Origin: a virus
Length of the DNA stretch: 23,168 nucleotides
Strand: one strand, 5' to 3'
IMG/VR virus record: IMGVR_UViG_3300031839_000574
Span: 1 to 23,168 of that record
Below, one piece after another: positions 667 through 18,186 of this stretch (its first letter is position 1; every line of letters begins with the position of its first letter). The notes beneath the pieces were generated by a model, which was given only the letters and a program-made list of their open reading frames with translations, was not told where the DNA came from and ran no database searches. Position numbers and translations under genes: made by a program.

Positions 667-1132
667 AAAATTGACTTTAAAAGAAGTTGCAATGAATGAA
701 AAACGTAAACTTGTTGAAAAGGTAAATTATTCAAACATTGTCAAATCATCTATTCACGATTTTTTCAAAATTGATATCAATCAAAAAACCCGCAAACGTG
801 AAGTAGTGGAGGCACGTTTTATGTTTTATGAATTATGTCGCAGAAATAGAATGAGTTTGTCGCAAATTGGTCGTTTTGTTGGTAAGGATCACGCAACAGT
901 ATTGCATGGAACAAAACGTTTTGAAATACTTTGTGAAGTTGATGTTGATTTTGAAAAGAATTTTCAAGCGTTGAAATCAATTGTTGATTTTAGATCATCA
1001 CGAAAAGTTGTGCCAAAATTAAGCGGAAAATCACTTTCACATCAACTTGCTGATGCTTTGAATTTAATTGAAAAACTGGAAAATGAAATTGACACTTTGA
1101 GAATTCAAATTGCAAAATGTGAAAATCAATGA
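641..1132 (+). CDS. DnaA domain IV-like DNA-binding protein
   Basis: The centre closely follows the C-terminal, DnaA box-binding domain of bacterial DnaA. A basic segment RKREVVEARFMFYELCRR is followed by a helix-turn-helix ending in GKDHATVLHGTKRFE, matching the DnaA signature (G-x-[RK]-D-H-[ST/A]-T-[LIVM]) at about residues 76-90. No AAA+ ATPase is present, so it could bind DNA but not oligomerise with ATP like DnaA. The C-terminus (LIEKLENEIDTLRIQIAK) is a short coiled coil that could dimerise it. Possible starts are ATG 641, 647 or 692; 641 fits the overlapping style of the operon, while 692 has a purine-rich leader. It sits between nuclease genes and just upstream of the initiator-like gene, which suggests a role in replication control or in competing for host DnaA sites. 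That role is inference. Confidence 0.75.
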   Translation: MKMGVSLSKKLTLKEVAMNEKRKLVEKVNYSNIVKSSIHDFFKIDINQKTRKREVVEARFMFYELCRRNRMSLSQIGRFVGKDHATVLHGTKRFEILCEVDVDFEKNFQALKSIVDFRSSRKVVPKLSGKSLSHQLADALNLIEKLENEIDTLRIQIAKCENQ

Positions 1133-1791: not shown

Positions 1792-2667
1792 ATGGTTGTA
1801 AACAGAATTTACAAACCTGATCATTTTGATAGGTTTGCGGTTATTCCGACCGATATATTTAGAAAAAAGGGAATCACGATGTCTGCATCTGGATTGTATT
1901 GTTGGCTATTTTCACACGATGCCAAACAAAAAATGACAATGGCATTCATTCAAGGGCATTTCAAGGATGGAAAGGATGCCATCACTTCAAAAATAAAGGA
2001 ACTGGAATCACTTGGGTTTTTAAAACGTGAGGAGGTGCGTGAAAATGGAAAGTTTTCAGGATACAATTTTCGGATGATTGTGCCAACCGTAGCGGAAAAA
2101 ACCGTTGCGGGAAAAACCGTCGCGGTTAATCCGCACCAAAGTAATATATATAATATACAAGATCATGTACAAGATCATATACAATATCATAATAAAAGTA
2201 ATAATATACCACAAAGCGTTGAAACCGCTTTGCAGCATTTTATTTTGTTATTCCCAAAAAAGTATCAACCAACAACCGATGCGCAAAAATTAAAGTGGGC
2301 GGAATGCCTTGAGCGCATTGAAAGGATTGATGGATACAATTTGCGTGAAGTGTATCAAATGGCAAAGAAACTGCGTGAGGATCAATTTTGGAGTGGCAAT
2401 TTCCTTTCACTATTAAAATTGCGAAACAAGGATAAAAATGGCATTTTGTACATTCACCGCTTTATGGATGGGCAAAAAACAGAAAAGCCACAAGCGTACA
2501 AGTTGATCCCAAACCTCATCAAGTTTTACAAATACAATGATCCTGCGGGAAAACCAATGATTGGCGCAATCACTAAAAATGCGGAGTTGGATGATTTCGC
2601 ACTGGTGTACAAACTTGGCACAACGGAATATGAAAATTTAAAAAAATATCTTGATGCAAAAGGATAA
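1792..2667 (+). CDS. Winged-helix replication initiator / replisome organiser-like protein
   Basis: The N-terminal ~100 residues look like the HTH_36-type winged helix of phage replisome organisers: FAVIPTDIFRKKGITMSASGLYCWL, then a helix-turn-helix (DGKDAITSKIKELESLGFLKR) and a wing ending in YNFRMIVP. A low-complexity linker (about residues 98-140) follows, encoded by tandem DNA repeats and an AT-only stretch. The C-terminal ~150 residues resemble the helicase-loading half of DnaD/lambda O-like proteins only in position and length. In lambda O and in several Gram-positive phages the origin lies inside the initiator gene, between its DNA-binding and helicase-loading halves, as the repeats do here. 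The primase-helicase lies about 0.8 kb downstream. An A-rich leader precedes ATG 1792 and no Shine-Dalgarno is visible. Family assignment is moderately sure. Confidence 0.7.
   Translation: MVVNRIYKPDHFDRFAVIPTDIFRKKGITMSASGLYCWLFSHDAKQKMTMAFIQGHFKDGKDAITSKIKELESLGFLKREEVRENGKFSGYNFRMIVPTVAEKTVAGKTVAVNPHQSNIYNIQDHVQDHIQYHNKSNNIPQSVETALQHFILLFPKKYQPTTDAQKLKWAECLERIERIDGYNLREVYQMAKKLREDQFWSGNFLSLLKLRNKDKNGILYIHRFMDGQKTEKPQAYKLIPNLIKFYKYNDPAGKPMIGAITKNAELDDFALVYKLGTTEYENLKKYLDAKG
2085..2129 (+). repeat. Three tandem 15-bp repeats (candidate iterons)
   Basis: Three head-to-tail 15-bp units occupy 2085-2099, 2100-2114 and 2115-2129. The shared core is AACCGTnGCGG. Each unit encodes five residues (TVAEK, TVAGK, TVAVN) of the initiator-like protein's linker. 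The GC-rich core stands out against AT-rich flanks. They look like binding sites for a replication initiator. Confidence 0.7.
2130..2200 (+). other. Candidate replication origin core: AT-only block plus 12-bp repeats
   Basis: A 16-base A/T-only block (2142-2157) follows the 15-bp repeats. It is followed by three near-identical 12-bp units: 2158-2169 (CAAGATCATGTA), 2170-2181 (CAAGATCATATA) and 2182-2193 (CAATATCATAAT). The layout of GC-rich repeats, AT-rich block and second repeat array inside an initiator-like gene is what an iteron origin with a DNA-unwinding element would look like. No DnaA box (TTATNCACA) was seen in this segment. Confidence 0.5.
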
Positions 2668-3510: not shown

Positions 3511-5187
3511 ATGAAACAGAAACTTGAAAACCTTGGAATTGTCCTGAAAAAACAATCAGGATACGAAAAAACAACTTGTCCTAAATGCTCACACACACGC
3601 AAAAAGAAAAATGATCCTTGTTTGTCGGTTACGATTGATGAAGGTGTGTACAATTGCCATAACTGCGGATGGAGCGGGAGCGTAAAGTTTGAGCGCAAAA
3701 AAGAATACATCAAACCTCCAAAAGTGAGTGTTGATTTGAATGATCGTGTTGTGGATTGGTTTGCACAACGTGGAATCACTGAGCCAACATTAGCGCACTG
3801 GAAAATTGGTGAATCACTTGAATATATGCCACAAGTGCAAAAGAAAAGGCGGTGCATCAACTTCAATTATTTTCGTGGAGGTGAACTCATCAATGTAAAA
3901 TTTAGGGATGCGGAAAAGAATTTCAAACTCGTTTCGGGTGCTGAATTGATTTTTTATGGCATTGATAATTTAAAAGATGTTGATCGGTGTTACATTGTGG
4001 AGGGTGAAATGGATGCGCTTTCATTGCACGAGGCGGGATTGTATTCCGTTTGCTCCGTTCCAAATGGTGCATCAAAGGGCAATCAAAAACTTGAATACCT
4101 TGATAATTGCTTTAAGTACTTTAAAAACAAAAAGGAAATCATTCTTTGCACTGATAATGATGATGCGGGATTGCAGTTGCGTAATGAATTAGCAAGGCGG
4201 TTTGGCAACTATCGTTGCAAATACGTTGAATTCGGGCAATACAAGGATGCGAATGAGGTATTGATATCAAAAGGAGCGGAAACGCTGCGAAACATCATCA
4301 AGGATGCGAAAAACTTTCCTTTGGAGGGGGTGTTGAATATAAATAACATTTGGGATAATGTTTTATCCTACAATGAAAAGGGCATCAAAAACTATTCACT
4401 TGGAATGGGTGAATCGGATTCGTATTTCAAAATTGCAATGGGTGAATGGAGCGTTGTCACTGGGATTCCCAATTCGGGAAAATCGGATGTTGTGGATCAG
4501 GTGCTTTGCAACTTGGCCACGAAATATGATTTTAGATGCGCAATGTTTTCACCTGAATCATTTCCCTATGAAGGGCATATAAAACGAATTGCCAACAAAC
4601 TAAATGAAAAAATGTGCAATTCGGATGACTTAAACAACACAAAGGATTTCATTGAGGATCATTTTTATTGGATAAAAATCGACCTTGAAAACCTTACATT
4701 GAAAGGTATTTTGGATGCGTTTCGGGAATTGGTATTTCAAAAGGGAATCAACGTTTGTGTGATTGATCCTTGGAATATGCTTGATCATTCAGCGCAAAGG
4801 GATTTCAGCTACATTGGGCGGGTGCTTTCAGAAATTACGCAATTTTGCCAACAAACAAACACGCATCTTTTTTTGGTGGCACATCCACGAAAAATTGAAT
4901 CGGTTGAGGGTGTATATAAAAAACCAACTTTGTACGATATTTCAGGAAGTGCGGATTTTTTTAATAAGGCATACAATGGAATTGTTGTGTATAGGTGTAT
5001 TGGGCAAAAAACCAAATACAAATCCGATGCGGTGCGCTTGTACATTGAAAAGGTGAAACGCAAGGAAAACGGGCAATTGGGGGATTTTGAAGTTGCTCCA
5101 GATTTCACAAATGGCGGGGTGTATAAACCGCTTGAGGCGGAAAACAAAAAATTTGAAGTGATAAAAGATACAAATGTTCCATTTTAA
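3511..5187 (+). CDS. Bifunctional DNA primase-helicase (T7 gp4/Twinkle type)
   Basis: 558 residues with three clear parts. First, a four-cysteine zinc finger (C23, C26, C49, C52; TCPKC and NCHNCGW) as in DnaG/T7 gp4 primases. Second, a TOPRIM domain with VEGEMDAL (E164, E166) and TDNDDAG (D215, D217). Third, a RecA-fold DnaB-like helicase with Walker A GIPNSGKS (318-325), Walker B CVIDPW (416-421) and an H3-like HLFLVAHPRK (452-461). It would unwind the fork and prime the lagging strand, giving the phage independence from host DnaB/DnaG. The size matches T7 gp4 (566 residues). No phage DNA polymerase is seen in the window, so host Pol III or a gene outside it must serve. Confidence 0.95.
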   Translation: MKQKLENLGIVLKKQSGYEKTTCPKCSHTRKKKNDPCLSVTIDEGVYNCHNCGWSGSVKFERKKEYIKPPKVSVDLNDRVVDWFAQRGITEPTLAHWKIGESLEYMPQVQKKRRCINFNYFRGGELINVKFRDAEKNFKLVSGAELIFYGIDNLKDVDRCYIVEGEMDALSLHEAGLYSVCSVPNGASKGNQKLEYLDNCFKYFKNKKEIILCTDNDDAGLQLRNELARRFGNYRCKYVEFGQYKDANEVLISKGAETLRNIIKDAKNFPLEGVLNINNIWDNVLSYNEKGIKNYSLGMGESDSYFKIAMGEWSVVTGIPNSGKSDVVDQVLCNLATKYDFRCAMFSPESFPYEGHIKRIANKLNEKMCNSDDLNNTKDFIEDHFYWIKIDLENLTLKGILDAFRELVFQKGINVCVIDPWNMLDHSAQRDFSYIGRVLSEITQFCQQTNTHLFLVAHPRKIESVEGVYKKPTLYDISGSADFFNKAYNGIVVYRCIGQKTKYKSDAVRLYIEKVKRKENGQLGDFEVAPDFTNGGVYKPLEAENKKFEVIKDTNVPF

Positions 5188-11378: not shown

Positions 11379-13376
11379 ATGCCAACTCCACGTGAAAACG
11401 AAACGCAAAGCCAATTTGTGGCACGTTGCGTGATTGATGATGAAGCAACAAGGGATTTCCCCGATATCGATCAACGCATTGCATTTTGTTATTCCCAATA
11501 TGAAAGGGAACAAAAAAACAATATCATTTCAAAACAAGTGAAAGCCAATTGGCAGGGTGCATTCGAAAATGAAAGGCGCAAAGCTGAAAAGGCAATCATC
11601 GGATCCGTGCAAAGGTTTTATCAATCGGAATATGAAAAGGGAGTTGATGCGTTTATAATTGATAGCACAATTCAATTGGATGGTATATTCACAACAAAAG
11701 GTTTTGAAAAAATATATCGTGATTTATACGTGCAAACTGGAATGAGGTTTGCCAATTGGTATGCGAGAAACTTTGACAAATTTTTAAAAAAAGGAATTAA
11801 CCCAAATCAATATCAAACTCAATGGCAAAACCTATTCGGGCAATTCGCTCAACAAAATGCGGGTGCAAAAGTTGTACTTGTTCAAGGAACTGCAAAGAAA
11901 ACATTGCAAAGGATATTGAGTGCCAATATGAACGATCCTGCATTTGCTGCGCTCGGAGCAAGGCAAAAGCGTGATGTAATACTACGTCAAACAAATTTAT
12001 ATTCAAGGAATCAAGCATTGCGATTGGTGCGTACAGAGGCAACCGCAGCTGCGAATTATGGCACATTGCAATCCGCAACAACTATATTTCCCGCACAACA
12101 AATGATGAAACAATGGGTTTCGGGCAATGATGGGCGCACACGGTCCATTCCTCCAAACGATTTTGATCACGTTGTGATGAATGGCAAACAAGTGAAATAT
12201 GAGGATACATTCAGCGTTCAAGGGCAACAAATGCGTTTTCCTGCGGATTCATCATTGGGTGCATCAGCGGGAAACATTGTGAATTGCAGATGCAGCGTGT
12301 TTCCATTCCCAATGGAGGAGGCACAAGCAATCGGACAATTTGAAAGTATTGGATTTGGCATTGGTGCGGTGCAACCCGTATTGGCGGGAACTGAAACGAT
12401 TGCAGCAACACAATCATTTGCAACACAAGCAACACAAGCAACAACCGCTGCGATTGATTATTCAGCATTCAGGGCAAAAAGCAAAGCACAAGCGCAAAAG
12501 ATTGCTAATGATTTAGGAATTAAAAACTTTGATTTTGATGGATTGAATATGAATATCACGAATGAATATCTTGTTGGATCAGCAAAAATAAAAGATCGGT
12601 TTGGTTTTGTTTTAGATACGCTCTCATCAGGAAAGGGATTGCGTAATATGATTTACAACAATACGTTTGATGATTTATTCAAACAATCAAAGGAGTTGCG
12701 TGATTTAGTTGAAAAATATGGAATGACTGTTGTTAAAAAGAAAATAAATTCAGCAATAAAATCAAGGTTTAAGTTTAGGAGCAGAGGAAAAACGAAAAAT
12801 TTACTCAATGATCATGGTATTGCCAACTTTTCATTGTTTCCTGAAAGTAGATTTATTTCAATACAGGGTCAAATTTATAAATTTAATGTTGGTCAATACA
12901 CTGGAATCAGGCATTCAATGGATTATAAGAACGTGCAAAGATTGATTGAAGCAATAAAAAATCAAAGATCACGTGGTTTCTTTGCGCAAGGTGTTGATTC
13001 GGTTGAATATATCGTGATGCACGAATTCGGACACGCACTGGATCACGCAGTTGGATTTGCCAAAAGCAAAGTATTCAGGGATCTATTGGCTAAATATAGG
13101 GCAAATGGGGATGATTGGATTGCTAAAAATTTAAGCAGCTACGGAGTTTCAGATATTGCAGATGATGCATCAGAACTTATTGCAGAGGCATTTGCGGAAT
13201 ATATGACATCACCAAACCCACGTTTGATTGCACGTGAAGTTGGTGAAGCGTTGGAAAAGTATTTCAAATTAAACAAAAAGAATATGGATATTAGCGCACC
13301 AAAAAAGCAAACTGAAATACCAAAACAAACAATTCCGTTCGTTTTATCACCGCAGCAACTTAAAAAATATATTTAG
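11379..13376 (+). CDS. MuF-type minor head protein fused to zinc-metallopeptidase-like domain
   Basis: 665 residues in three parts. Residues 1-45 carry ENETQSQFVARCVIDDEA, then DQRIAFCYSQYE, a short cysteine-containing motif seen at the start of several phage head proteins. Residues ~60-310 are the SPP1 gp7/Mu F-like head morphogenesis domain, ending with the typical FPADSSLGASAGNIVNCRC (C near 302). After an Ala/Gln/Thr-rich linker (~335-365) comes a ~290-residue C-terminal region with HEFGH (548-552) and ELIAEAFAEYM (glutamates 603 and 607). This is the HExxH-plus-downstream-glutamate signature of zincins such as the anthrax lethal-factor-like family. MuF proteins sit inside the head near the portal and some carry C-terminal toxin domains delivered with DNA. 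Peptidase activity is inferred from the intact motif. Confidence 0.88.
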   Translation: MPTPRENETQSQFVARCVIDDEATRDFPDIDQRIAFCYSQYEREQKNNIISKQVKANWQGAFENERRKAEKAIIGSVQRFYQSEYEKGVDAFIIDSTIQLDGIFTTKGFEKIYRDLYVQTGMRFANWYARNFDKFLKKGINPNQYQTQWQNLFGQFAQQNAGAKVVLVQGTAKKTLQRILSANMNDPAFAALGARQKRDVILRQTNLYSRNQALRLVRTEATAAANYGTLQSATTIFPAQQMMKQWVSGNDGRTRSIPPNDFDHVVMNGKQVKYEDTFSVQGQQMRFPADSSLGASAGNIVNCRCSVFPFPMEEAQAIGQFESIGFGIGAVQPVLAGTETIAATQSFATQATQATTAAIDYSAFRAKSKAQAQKIANDLGIKNFDFDGLNMNITNEYLVGSAKIKDRFGFVLDTLSSGKGLRNMIYNNTFDDLFKQSKELRDLVEKYGMTVVKKKINSAIKSRFKFRSRGKTKNLLNDHGIANFSLFPESRFISIQGQIYKFNVGQYTGIRHSMDYKNVQRLIEAIKNQRSRGFFAQGVDSVEYIVMHEFGHALDHAVGFAKSKVFRDLLAKYRANGDDWIAKNLSSYGVSDIADDASELIAEAFAEYMTSPNPRLIAREVGEALEKYFKLNKKNMDISAPKKQTEIPKQTIPFVLSPQQLKKYI

Positions 13377-17704: not shown

Positions 17705-18186
17705 AAGAAGTTATTCATCGCATACGAAAAGCCATCATTGATCGTTTAACAAACGAAGTTTCATTGCGTGGCAATATCGTGCCAATTTATGGCAGAGTGC
17801 CATCAAATGCAACGTATCCATTTGTACGGGTGTATTCACTTACAAACAACGAAGTGGATCAAAATCAAACAACATTCAATTCCGAAGTGATTACAAGGAT
17901 TGAAGTGGTTACAAGATTTGAATCGGATAATGGTGGGGAACTCGATTGCAACCTCATTGTGGATGAATGTTTATCTTTGTTGCGCACACGATCAGCAAAT
18001 TATTTTGATTTGAGCGCACAAGGATTTAATGTGTACACATCACAAAATGAGGGCATTCAGTACATTGAGCAAGATTTGAGTGATCACACATATTTCAGGG
18101 CAATCATTGAATTATCCAATCGTGTTGAACAAATGCCTCCATCGGGTGGATTACAAGCGGAATTACAATTTGAATTACAATCATAA
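17701..18186 (+). CDS. Tail terminator-like protein (DUF3168/gp17-type)
   Basis: 161 residues, ATGA overlap with the previous gene. It contains IRKAIIDRLTNEVSLRG, the IYGRVPSNATYPFVRV segment (the P.d..yPyv.ig pattern of this family), then a long paired-strand region and YFRAIIELSNRV at the C-terminal side. Tail terminators cap the growing tail tube and fix its length. Position after the gp10-like gene agrees. The last residues are glutamine/leucine-rich (LQAELQFELQS). Family match moderate to good. Confidence 0.75.
   Translation: MKEVIHRIRKAIIDRLTNEVSLRGNIVPIYGRVPSNATYPFVRVYSLTNNEVDQNQTTFNSEVITRIEVVTRFESDNGGELDCNLIVDECLSLLRTRSANYFDLSAQGFNVYTSQNEGIQYIEQDLSDHTYFRAIIELSNRVEQMPPSGGLQAELQFELQS

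Follow-up and report, generated by a model that had tools for sequence, protein, structure and literature searches.

We propose that positions 2085-2210 of the window, by which we mean the whole 23,168-base virus record that was analysed, are likely to be a phage replication origin lying inside the gene of its own initiator. This reading draws on comparison with relatives and on analogy with known systems. The window carries tailed-phage genes (terminase, portal, primase-helicase). Among the nearest phage matches of the primase-helicase are phages of Cellulophaga, Tenacibaculum and Flavobacterium, and one relative of the C-terminal domain of the initiator was found in Aquimarina; to judge from these relatives, the host is probably a member of the Flavobacteriia. 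The features on which the argument turns are as follows.

692-1132, plus strand: linked gene for a protein consisting of DnaA domain IV only (Bac_DnaA_C, E 1.7e-12)
1792-2667, plus strand: rep, replication initiator, 291 aa (phrog_270 'replication initiation protein', E 1.9e-10)
1792-2076, plus strand: predicted winged-helix DNA-binding domain, residues 1-95 (AlphaFold2 and VIA fold matches)
2087-2095, unstranded: iteron 1, CCGTAGCGG (core repeat positions)
2102-2110, unstranded: iteron 2, A-tract and CCGTTGCGG (core repeat positions)
2117-2125, unstranded: iteron 3, A-tract and CCGTCGCGG (core repeat positions)
2128-2145, unstranded: junction element AATCCGCACCAAAGTAAT, of which the CAAAGTAAT part is kept at the DNA level (AGT codon bias)
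2137-2210, unstranded: A+T-rich block, presumed DNA unwinding element (A+T content)
2142-2157, unstranded: AT-only run of 16 nt (sequence)
2153-2191, unstranded: three 12-bp units with RTACAA at 2155, 2167 and 2179 (TRF)
2209-2664, plus strand: conserved C-terminal domain, residues 140-291, presumed replisome-recruiting part (AlphaFold2, O-like PHROGs)
3511-5187, plus strand: fused primase-helicase (Toprim and DnaB-like), candidate recruit of Rep (phrog_239, E 1.1e-86; Toprim_2, DnaB_C)

Rep and its domains

The window's Rep matches the HTH_36 profile (PF13730) with an E value of 5e-5 and 23.4 bits, slightly below the 25-bit cut-off, and a Pfam profile search found an HTH_36 N-domain in 37 of 39 rep family members (best 2e-14). 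In an AlphaFold2 model made with 39 relatives as input (mean pLDDT 80.8), the 10-residue blocks of the winged helix mostly score about 80-93, with a minimum of 71, and linker residues 100-136, which coincide exactly with the repeat-coded part, fall below 50; the C-domain begins at residue 141. The C-domain modelled alone (2206-2664) has a pLDDT of 90.8. The repeats are predicted, then, to encode a disordered linker that joins the winged helix to a conserved C-domain.

The best fold match of the winged helix in VIA was RctB domain 1 (Z 9.9), and the plasmid initiators 4pql (Z 8.5, rmsd 3.4 over 88), 5kbj (Z 8.0, rmsd 3.2 over 88), 4pt7 and 4pta gave Z scores of 7.9-8.5; we take 4pql and 5kbj to be RepA_N proteins, the entry titles giving just initiator, Rep or DNA binding protein. 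Primosomal DnaB (5wtn) scored Z 8.9 over a longer alignment with poor superposition (rmsd 13.8). The winged-helix fold of solved RepA_N initiators is matched, though not exclusively, Z being similar for RctB and DnaB, and the modelled fold is nearest to those of plasmid and chromosome-II initiators. A PDB sequence search with the N-domain returned general transcription regulators only.

The C-domain has short matches to 'replication initiation O-like' PHROGs (47 C-terminal residues for phrog_391). It is conserved and confidently predicted, yet we found no credible fold for it among solved structures (Foldseek best E 0.04; VIA best Z 6.3), and a PDB sequence search gave one weak, unrelated match only.

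Two repeat families in the window

The first-pass annotation had described three 15-bp repeats, a 16-nt AT-only block and three 12-bp repeats in the linker-coding part of this gene, and both TRF and a core search recovered them in place. The 11-nt core AACCGTnGCGG lies at 2085, 2100 and 2115 (91% identity to the first copy); TRF reports the 15-mers at 2085-2125 (period 15, 2.7 copies) and the 12-mers at 2153-2191 (period 12, 3.2 copies), the first 12-mer sharing 5 nt with the AT-only run. One correction is needed, in that all three 15-bp cores are present but the third unit consists of the core only, with no A-tract after it.

When 1153 windows of 120 nt were scored for repeats of 9-30 nt, the two families ranked as the top two of the record (20.0 and 18.5; next 15.0). 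Against 5000 codon shuffles both families gave p 0.0002, and against synonymous recoding the 15-mers gave p 0.026 and the 12-mers p 0.005. Within the window, the peptide accounts for part, not all, of the repeat DNA identity; the excess over recoding is modest there, and the decisive evidence for repeats at the DNA level comes from the relatives. We note that other tandem repeats of the window lie inside predicted ORFs, at 12420-12443 (9 bp) and 17884-17922 (18 bp).

Relatives keep the DNA signal whatever the reading frame

A scan of IMG/VR and GTDB contigs yielded 252 loci with 175 distinct rep ORFs, from which 154 linkers could be extracted (the other 21 ORFs were truncated, or missed by the extraction pattern), and these linkers fell into 39 clusters at 85% linker identity. 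Among the relatives, the 15-bp unit is made up of an A-tract and the inverted repeat CCG-N3/4-CGG. At the 39 cluster loci this inverted repeat occurs 61 times in 4,095 nt of linker versus 26 times in 296,490 nt of flank. Elsewhere in the window it is found as single copies at 5024, 8225, 11104 and 23061, and in 12 longer phage records tandem arrays of the motif occur at rep only (in 8 of the 12 by the strict pattern). An unbiased search for 9-mer clusters at the representative loci found nothing common beyond the rep-linker repeats.

The copies do not keep to one codon phase. In the 23 linker clusters that bear iterons, 52 copies occupy phases 0, 1 and 2 in the ratio 21/23/8, and 10 of the 23 representatives mix phases within one gene; across all 154 linkers there are 216 copies in 92 genes (phases 67/118/31), 39 of which mix phases. 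As one example, successive iteron copies of locus L068 translate as NRGG, TAAV and PGPV. The first-pass annotation had remarked that the repeat lengths are multiples of three and so preserve the frame; this is true of the window, but spacings in the 23 clusters are 15 (17 cases), 14 (6), 16 (5) and 30 bp (1).

Out-of-phase repeats, with lags that are not multiples of three, scored above synonymous recodings (p<=0.05) in 16 of the 39 clusters and above codon shuffles in 14, and in-phase repeats did so in 21 and 30 clusters respectively; the clusters are interrelated and permutation tests remove kinship incompletely, so that combined p-values are a loose guide. Five clusters (L036, L212, L105, L122 and L208) failed all four repeat tests at p<=0.05, so an array can dwindle until one or two good sites are left. 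Of the three regions, the linker is the least conserved within the window's HTH class (identity 0.39, versus 0.62 and 0.46).

The signal is thus kept in different reading frames, which argues that evolution preserves the DNA and not the peptide. The expectation that related phages would keep repeats in linker DNA while its amino acids vary is borne out, even across reading frames, and the out-of-phase copies sustain the original suggestion that, as in lambda O, a winged-helix initiator carries DNA-level sites in its linker.

Several further observations concern individual loci. In the linkers of L035-L038, L041 and L044, one inter-iteron spacer is TTTTT in place of AAAAA (Lys to Phe), and the A-tract there seems able to face either way. 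L192 carries at least three copies of a AAATAAACTTTGTTT-like sequence clustered about 3.4 kb upstream of rep. L088 and L090 are phage contigs binned into Woesearchaeota and Rhodobiaceae MAGs respectively, and they look like mis-binned phage DNA; the L090 contig measures 19,158, as does IMG/VR record 2786546945_000001 (L189).

Iterons follow the DNA-binding domain

Across 741 pairs of representatives, iteron similarity correlates with N-domain similarity when the C-domain is held (partial r 0.68, permutation p 0.0005), and hardly with the C-domain (partial r 0.10, p 0.066). Without a divergent class D the values are 0.27 (p 0.0025) for the N-domain and 0.08 (p 0.14) for the C-domain. By this comparison, iteron sequence follows the DNA-binding domain and not the C-domain.

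Class D comprises L175, L183, L185, L189 and L192, whose N-domains look unrelated, being 14-19% identical to those of their nearest C-domain relatives. Its iteron differs: L175, L192 and L189 have the CCTATTGA(C/A)GAAAAG type, whereas L183 and L185 carry degenerate forms, and it too occupies two codon phases. On the N-domain tree class D is a single clade (100/100), while on the C-domain tree an AU test rejects that clade (p 7e-60); the DNA-binding part must therefore have been exchanged more than once. The C-domain tree also rejects group E (L093, L116, L212) as a clade (p 7e-8). This carries less weight, since the three are not joined with support on the N-domain tree; the group was defined after its members' iterons had been seen.

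The borders of one exchange can be followed in the DNA. L189 and L041/L044 are about 89-91% identical until 25 nt before the ORF, have nothing alignable across the winged helix, the iterons and the AT block, and are 93-94% identical again from position 354; between L189 and L041 the C-domain is 97% identical and the N-domain 14%. This alignment shows a recent joint exchange of winged helix, repeats and AT block between phages that are about 90% identical. The pair L192/L036, at 78-81% identity, has nearly identical exchange borders.

The junction element, the A+T-rich block and the 12-mers

After the last iteron comes CAAAGTAAT, and then A+T-rich DNA. In the 34 representatives that encode Q[SN]N, the Ser codon is AGT in 33, compared with 23% AGT in the remainder of the genes. 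In all 34 representatives with the element, the 60 nt from CAAAGTAAT exceed the remainder of the ORF in A+T content (mean 0.846 versus 0.707). In the window the block is 80% A+T over 80 nt and comes only fifth when 80-nt windows are ranked, which means that base composition by itself would not be enough to pick it out.

RTACAA-like 12-mers were found in 17 of the 154 linkers, all in group-A genes (the window's lineage) and with 2-7 copies each, and their 12-nt spacing in none of the other 137. Within the 12-mers of these 17 genes Ile is always ATA (56/56) and Val always GTA (38/38), each codon making up 40% elsewhere in the same genes. Judged by this codon usage, the 12-mers are real DNA elements, restricted to the window's lineage.

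The DnaA-domain gene, DnaA boxes and GC skew

A strict signature search placed a DnaA-IV homologue upstream of rep in 34 of the 115 loci with enough sequence, and an HMM made from those 34 family members raised the count to 109 of 115. The gene is part of the replication module. Where the origin was exchanged, in the L189/L041-L044 pairs, it remains 85-86% identical. The 39 loci show no enrichment of DnaA boxes (11 versus about 24 expected by base composition in 300,585 nt), and the window has no exact TTATNCACA; by these two counts the boxes of a DnaA-dependent origin are not seen here. The linkage of the DnaA-IV gene to rep, despite the lack of box enrichment, is worth recording in its own right; the target of its product might be the host oriC, its own promoter or some other site.

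GC skew, which the first-pass annotation had put forward as a guide to the origin, shows no switch at the site in the window, nor in three longer relatives (33-35 kb, each with 1-2 negative windows of 500 nt), and this neither supports nor refutes an origin.

Proposed mechanism and alternative explanations

We suggest that the winged helix of Rep would bind the iterons, each an A-tract with CCG-N3/4-CGG, at a spacing of about 15 bp. The identity of the iterons and their pairing with the winged helix come from comparison, and from these we infer physical binding. Several Rep molecules on the array might then, by bending the DNA and putting it under strain, open the neighbouring A+T-rich block from CAAAGTAAT onward, as in lambda O, RK2 TrfA and pSK41 Rep, on which this step is modelled. 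In the window's lineage, the same Rep would most likely also read the RTACAA 12-mers in the A+T block, which would act as strand-specific unwinding repeats in the manner of the RK2 13-mers. The C-domain, tethered via the disordered, origin-coded linker, would have the presumed role of bringing in the phage primase-helicase. Since flexibility is all that the linker has to provide, its peptide could take any sequence that the iterons happen to encode, in any frame. The winged helix and the origin would form one exchangeable in-frame unit, with the C-domain and the flanking genes staying with the phage lineage.

Other explanations of the same repeats deserve consideration. Rep-binding sites could serve copy or expression control, as an operator or titration array within the gene, with replication starting elsewhere. 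All of the DNA-conservation evidence points to binding sites and not to an origin as such, and the missing GC-skew switch is in keeping with such an array; we nevertheless consider it unlikely, given that a conserved element and A+T-rich DNA follow the array in every representative with CAAAGTAAT, that the 12 longer records hold no second tandem array of the motif, and that the same place within the gene is a proven origin in lambda and in pSK41 (available text of PMC7466680 and PMC5703833). The idea of the first-pass annotation that two proteins share the site, Rep reading the 15-mers and the upstream DnaA-domain protein the 12-mers, agrees with the linkage of that gene to rep and with the DNA-level constraint on the 12-mers within their lineage. 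We think it very unlikely, for the 12-mers are confined to a small minority of linkers whereas the DnaA-IV gene is near-universal, the gene was retained where winged helix, iterons and AT block were swapped, and DnaA boxes are not enriched.

Selection could instead act on a repeat peptide in the linker (for example TVAGK or IQDH), the DNA repeats being a by-product of slippage. Both families of the window are in frame, and synonymous recoding reproduces part of their score, as such selection would have it. The out-of-phase copies contradict it: within L068 one DNA unit is read as three different peptides. The linker, moreover, is predicted to be disordered and is the least conserved of the three regions in the window's HTH class, and we regard this explanation as extremely improbable. 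An origin read by Rep inside its own gene is the explanation that we prefer.

Wider occurrence and significance

Beyond the close relatives, we examined 19 phages chosen for host diversity among the matches listed in two phage searches (40 and 39 rows). Eleven of the 19 have at least two CCG-N3/4-CGG sites in nt 240-450 of the rep ORF, a count whose chance level is raised by GC-rich hosts, and three of them (AS73P1, phiCD27 and Matzah) mix phases. In all 19 the strongest internal repeat of the whole ORF lies at residues 94-163, and in 18 it beats codon shuffling at p<=0.05. In the other eight there is no more than one such site, and the best repeat is of another kind; in VanLee and LL-H the strongest repeat is not iteron-like and no convincing site was found. 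Among six plasmids, chosen from 30 of the 177 plasmid records matched, five have a significant internal repeat, the Streptomyces case not being significant. Two of the six, pSNJS102 and a Brevibacillus plasmid, have at least two CCG-N3/4-CGG sites in nt 240-450, one with mixed phases (the Streptomyces plasmid was set aside in the site count as GC-rich). The signal is thus also present in isolated phages and plasmids of several phyla. The window's HTH class includes Bacteroides BK649P1, Enterococcus fHoEfm07, C. difficile phiCD27, the Brevibacillus plasmid and others, whose C-domains and neighbour genes are unlike the window's.

A broader proposal, which we regard as evenly balanced between right and wrong, is that a single origin grammar is common to the HTH_36 initiators of phages and plasmids from several bacterial phyla: A-tract and CCG-N3/4-CGG at 14-16 bp, followed by an A+T-rich opener, coded in the linker and free of frame. 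Repeat peptides such as TGKP, EKPL and ENP, which many annotated replication proteins contain, would then be origin DNA in translation and have no role as peptides, and the winged helix and its origin would travel between phages as a self-contained, in-frame cassette of about 400 nt. If so, the cassette would give a genome a new compatible replicon while its own replisome-recruiting domain is retained. The internal origin proposed here would itself account for the variable repeat peptides of phage replication proteins, and it offers a simple rule for locating origins of uncultured phages from sequence, namely linker repeats in any frame within an HTH_36-type initiator gene. Natural swaps predict which domain reads which sites, which opens replicon compatibility, origin-based phage interference and phage-plasmid exchange to direct tests.

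Comparison with known systems

In lambda, the iteron region codes the stretch of O between its DNA-binding and partner-binding parts. Iterons with A-tracts, followed by an A+T-rich tract, lie in mid-gene in O of lambda and its Stx-phage relatives (available text of PMC7466680). The window is alike in having A-tract iterons and then an A+T-rich tract within the initiator gene, and differs in iteron sequence and spacing and in the DnaA-IV gene linked to rep. Its Rep has no match to the Phage_rep_O Pfam profile at E<=0.1, just the short C-terminal matches to O-like PHROGs, and its helicase would be the phage primase-helicase and not a host DnaB loaded by a P-like protein.

The RK2 origin lies outside the rep gene and has DnaA boxes, and Rep proteins of the TrfA kind have two winged helices. 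RK2 oriV combines iterons with four AT-rich 13-mers, and one initiator, TrfA, binds both (excerpted text of PMC4081077). The view of the first-pass annotation that two repeat families beside an AT block are unusual is hard to maintain in the light of this case, which the window resembles in that its iterons adjoin an A+T-rich element holding short repeats of its own; unlike RK2, the window's system has no enrichment of DnaA boxes.

Searches of the open-access literature listed no work describing iterons independent of the reading frame in phage initiators, nor any on phage origins of the HTH_36 type. The general placement of origins may reportedly have been anticipated by Weigel and Seitz (2006) in their treatment of phage replication modules. 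The portions available of PMC8951638 only name HTH_36 proteins in phages.

The plasmid initiator pSK41 Rep has its Rep boxes centrally in rep and binds A-tract sites through a winged-helix N-domain; its origin-coded linker is dispensable as protein, and its C-domain serves the replisome (PMC5703833, as far as the available text goes). The same partial text describes pPR9, in which about 500 bp of N-domain and origin are replaced by a pfam13730 HTH and the mini-replicon works. The window differs from pSK41 in being a phage, in iterons of the CCG-N3/4-CGG kind, in a C-domain with no confident structural match and in having no RepA_N (PF06970) match, which was also absent among the 39 rep members at E<=0.01. 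It shares with pSK41 Rep the repeats within rep and a winged-helix N-domain, the predicted fold being close to those of the plasmid initiators noted above. It shares with pPR9 an HTH of Pfam family pfam13730, and the L189/L041 swap is of the same kind. By profile a member of neither Phage_rep_O nor RepA_N, the window's initiator would, by analogy, work like lambda O and pSK41 Rep.
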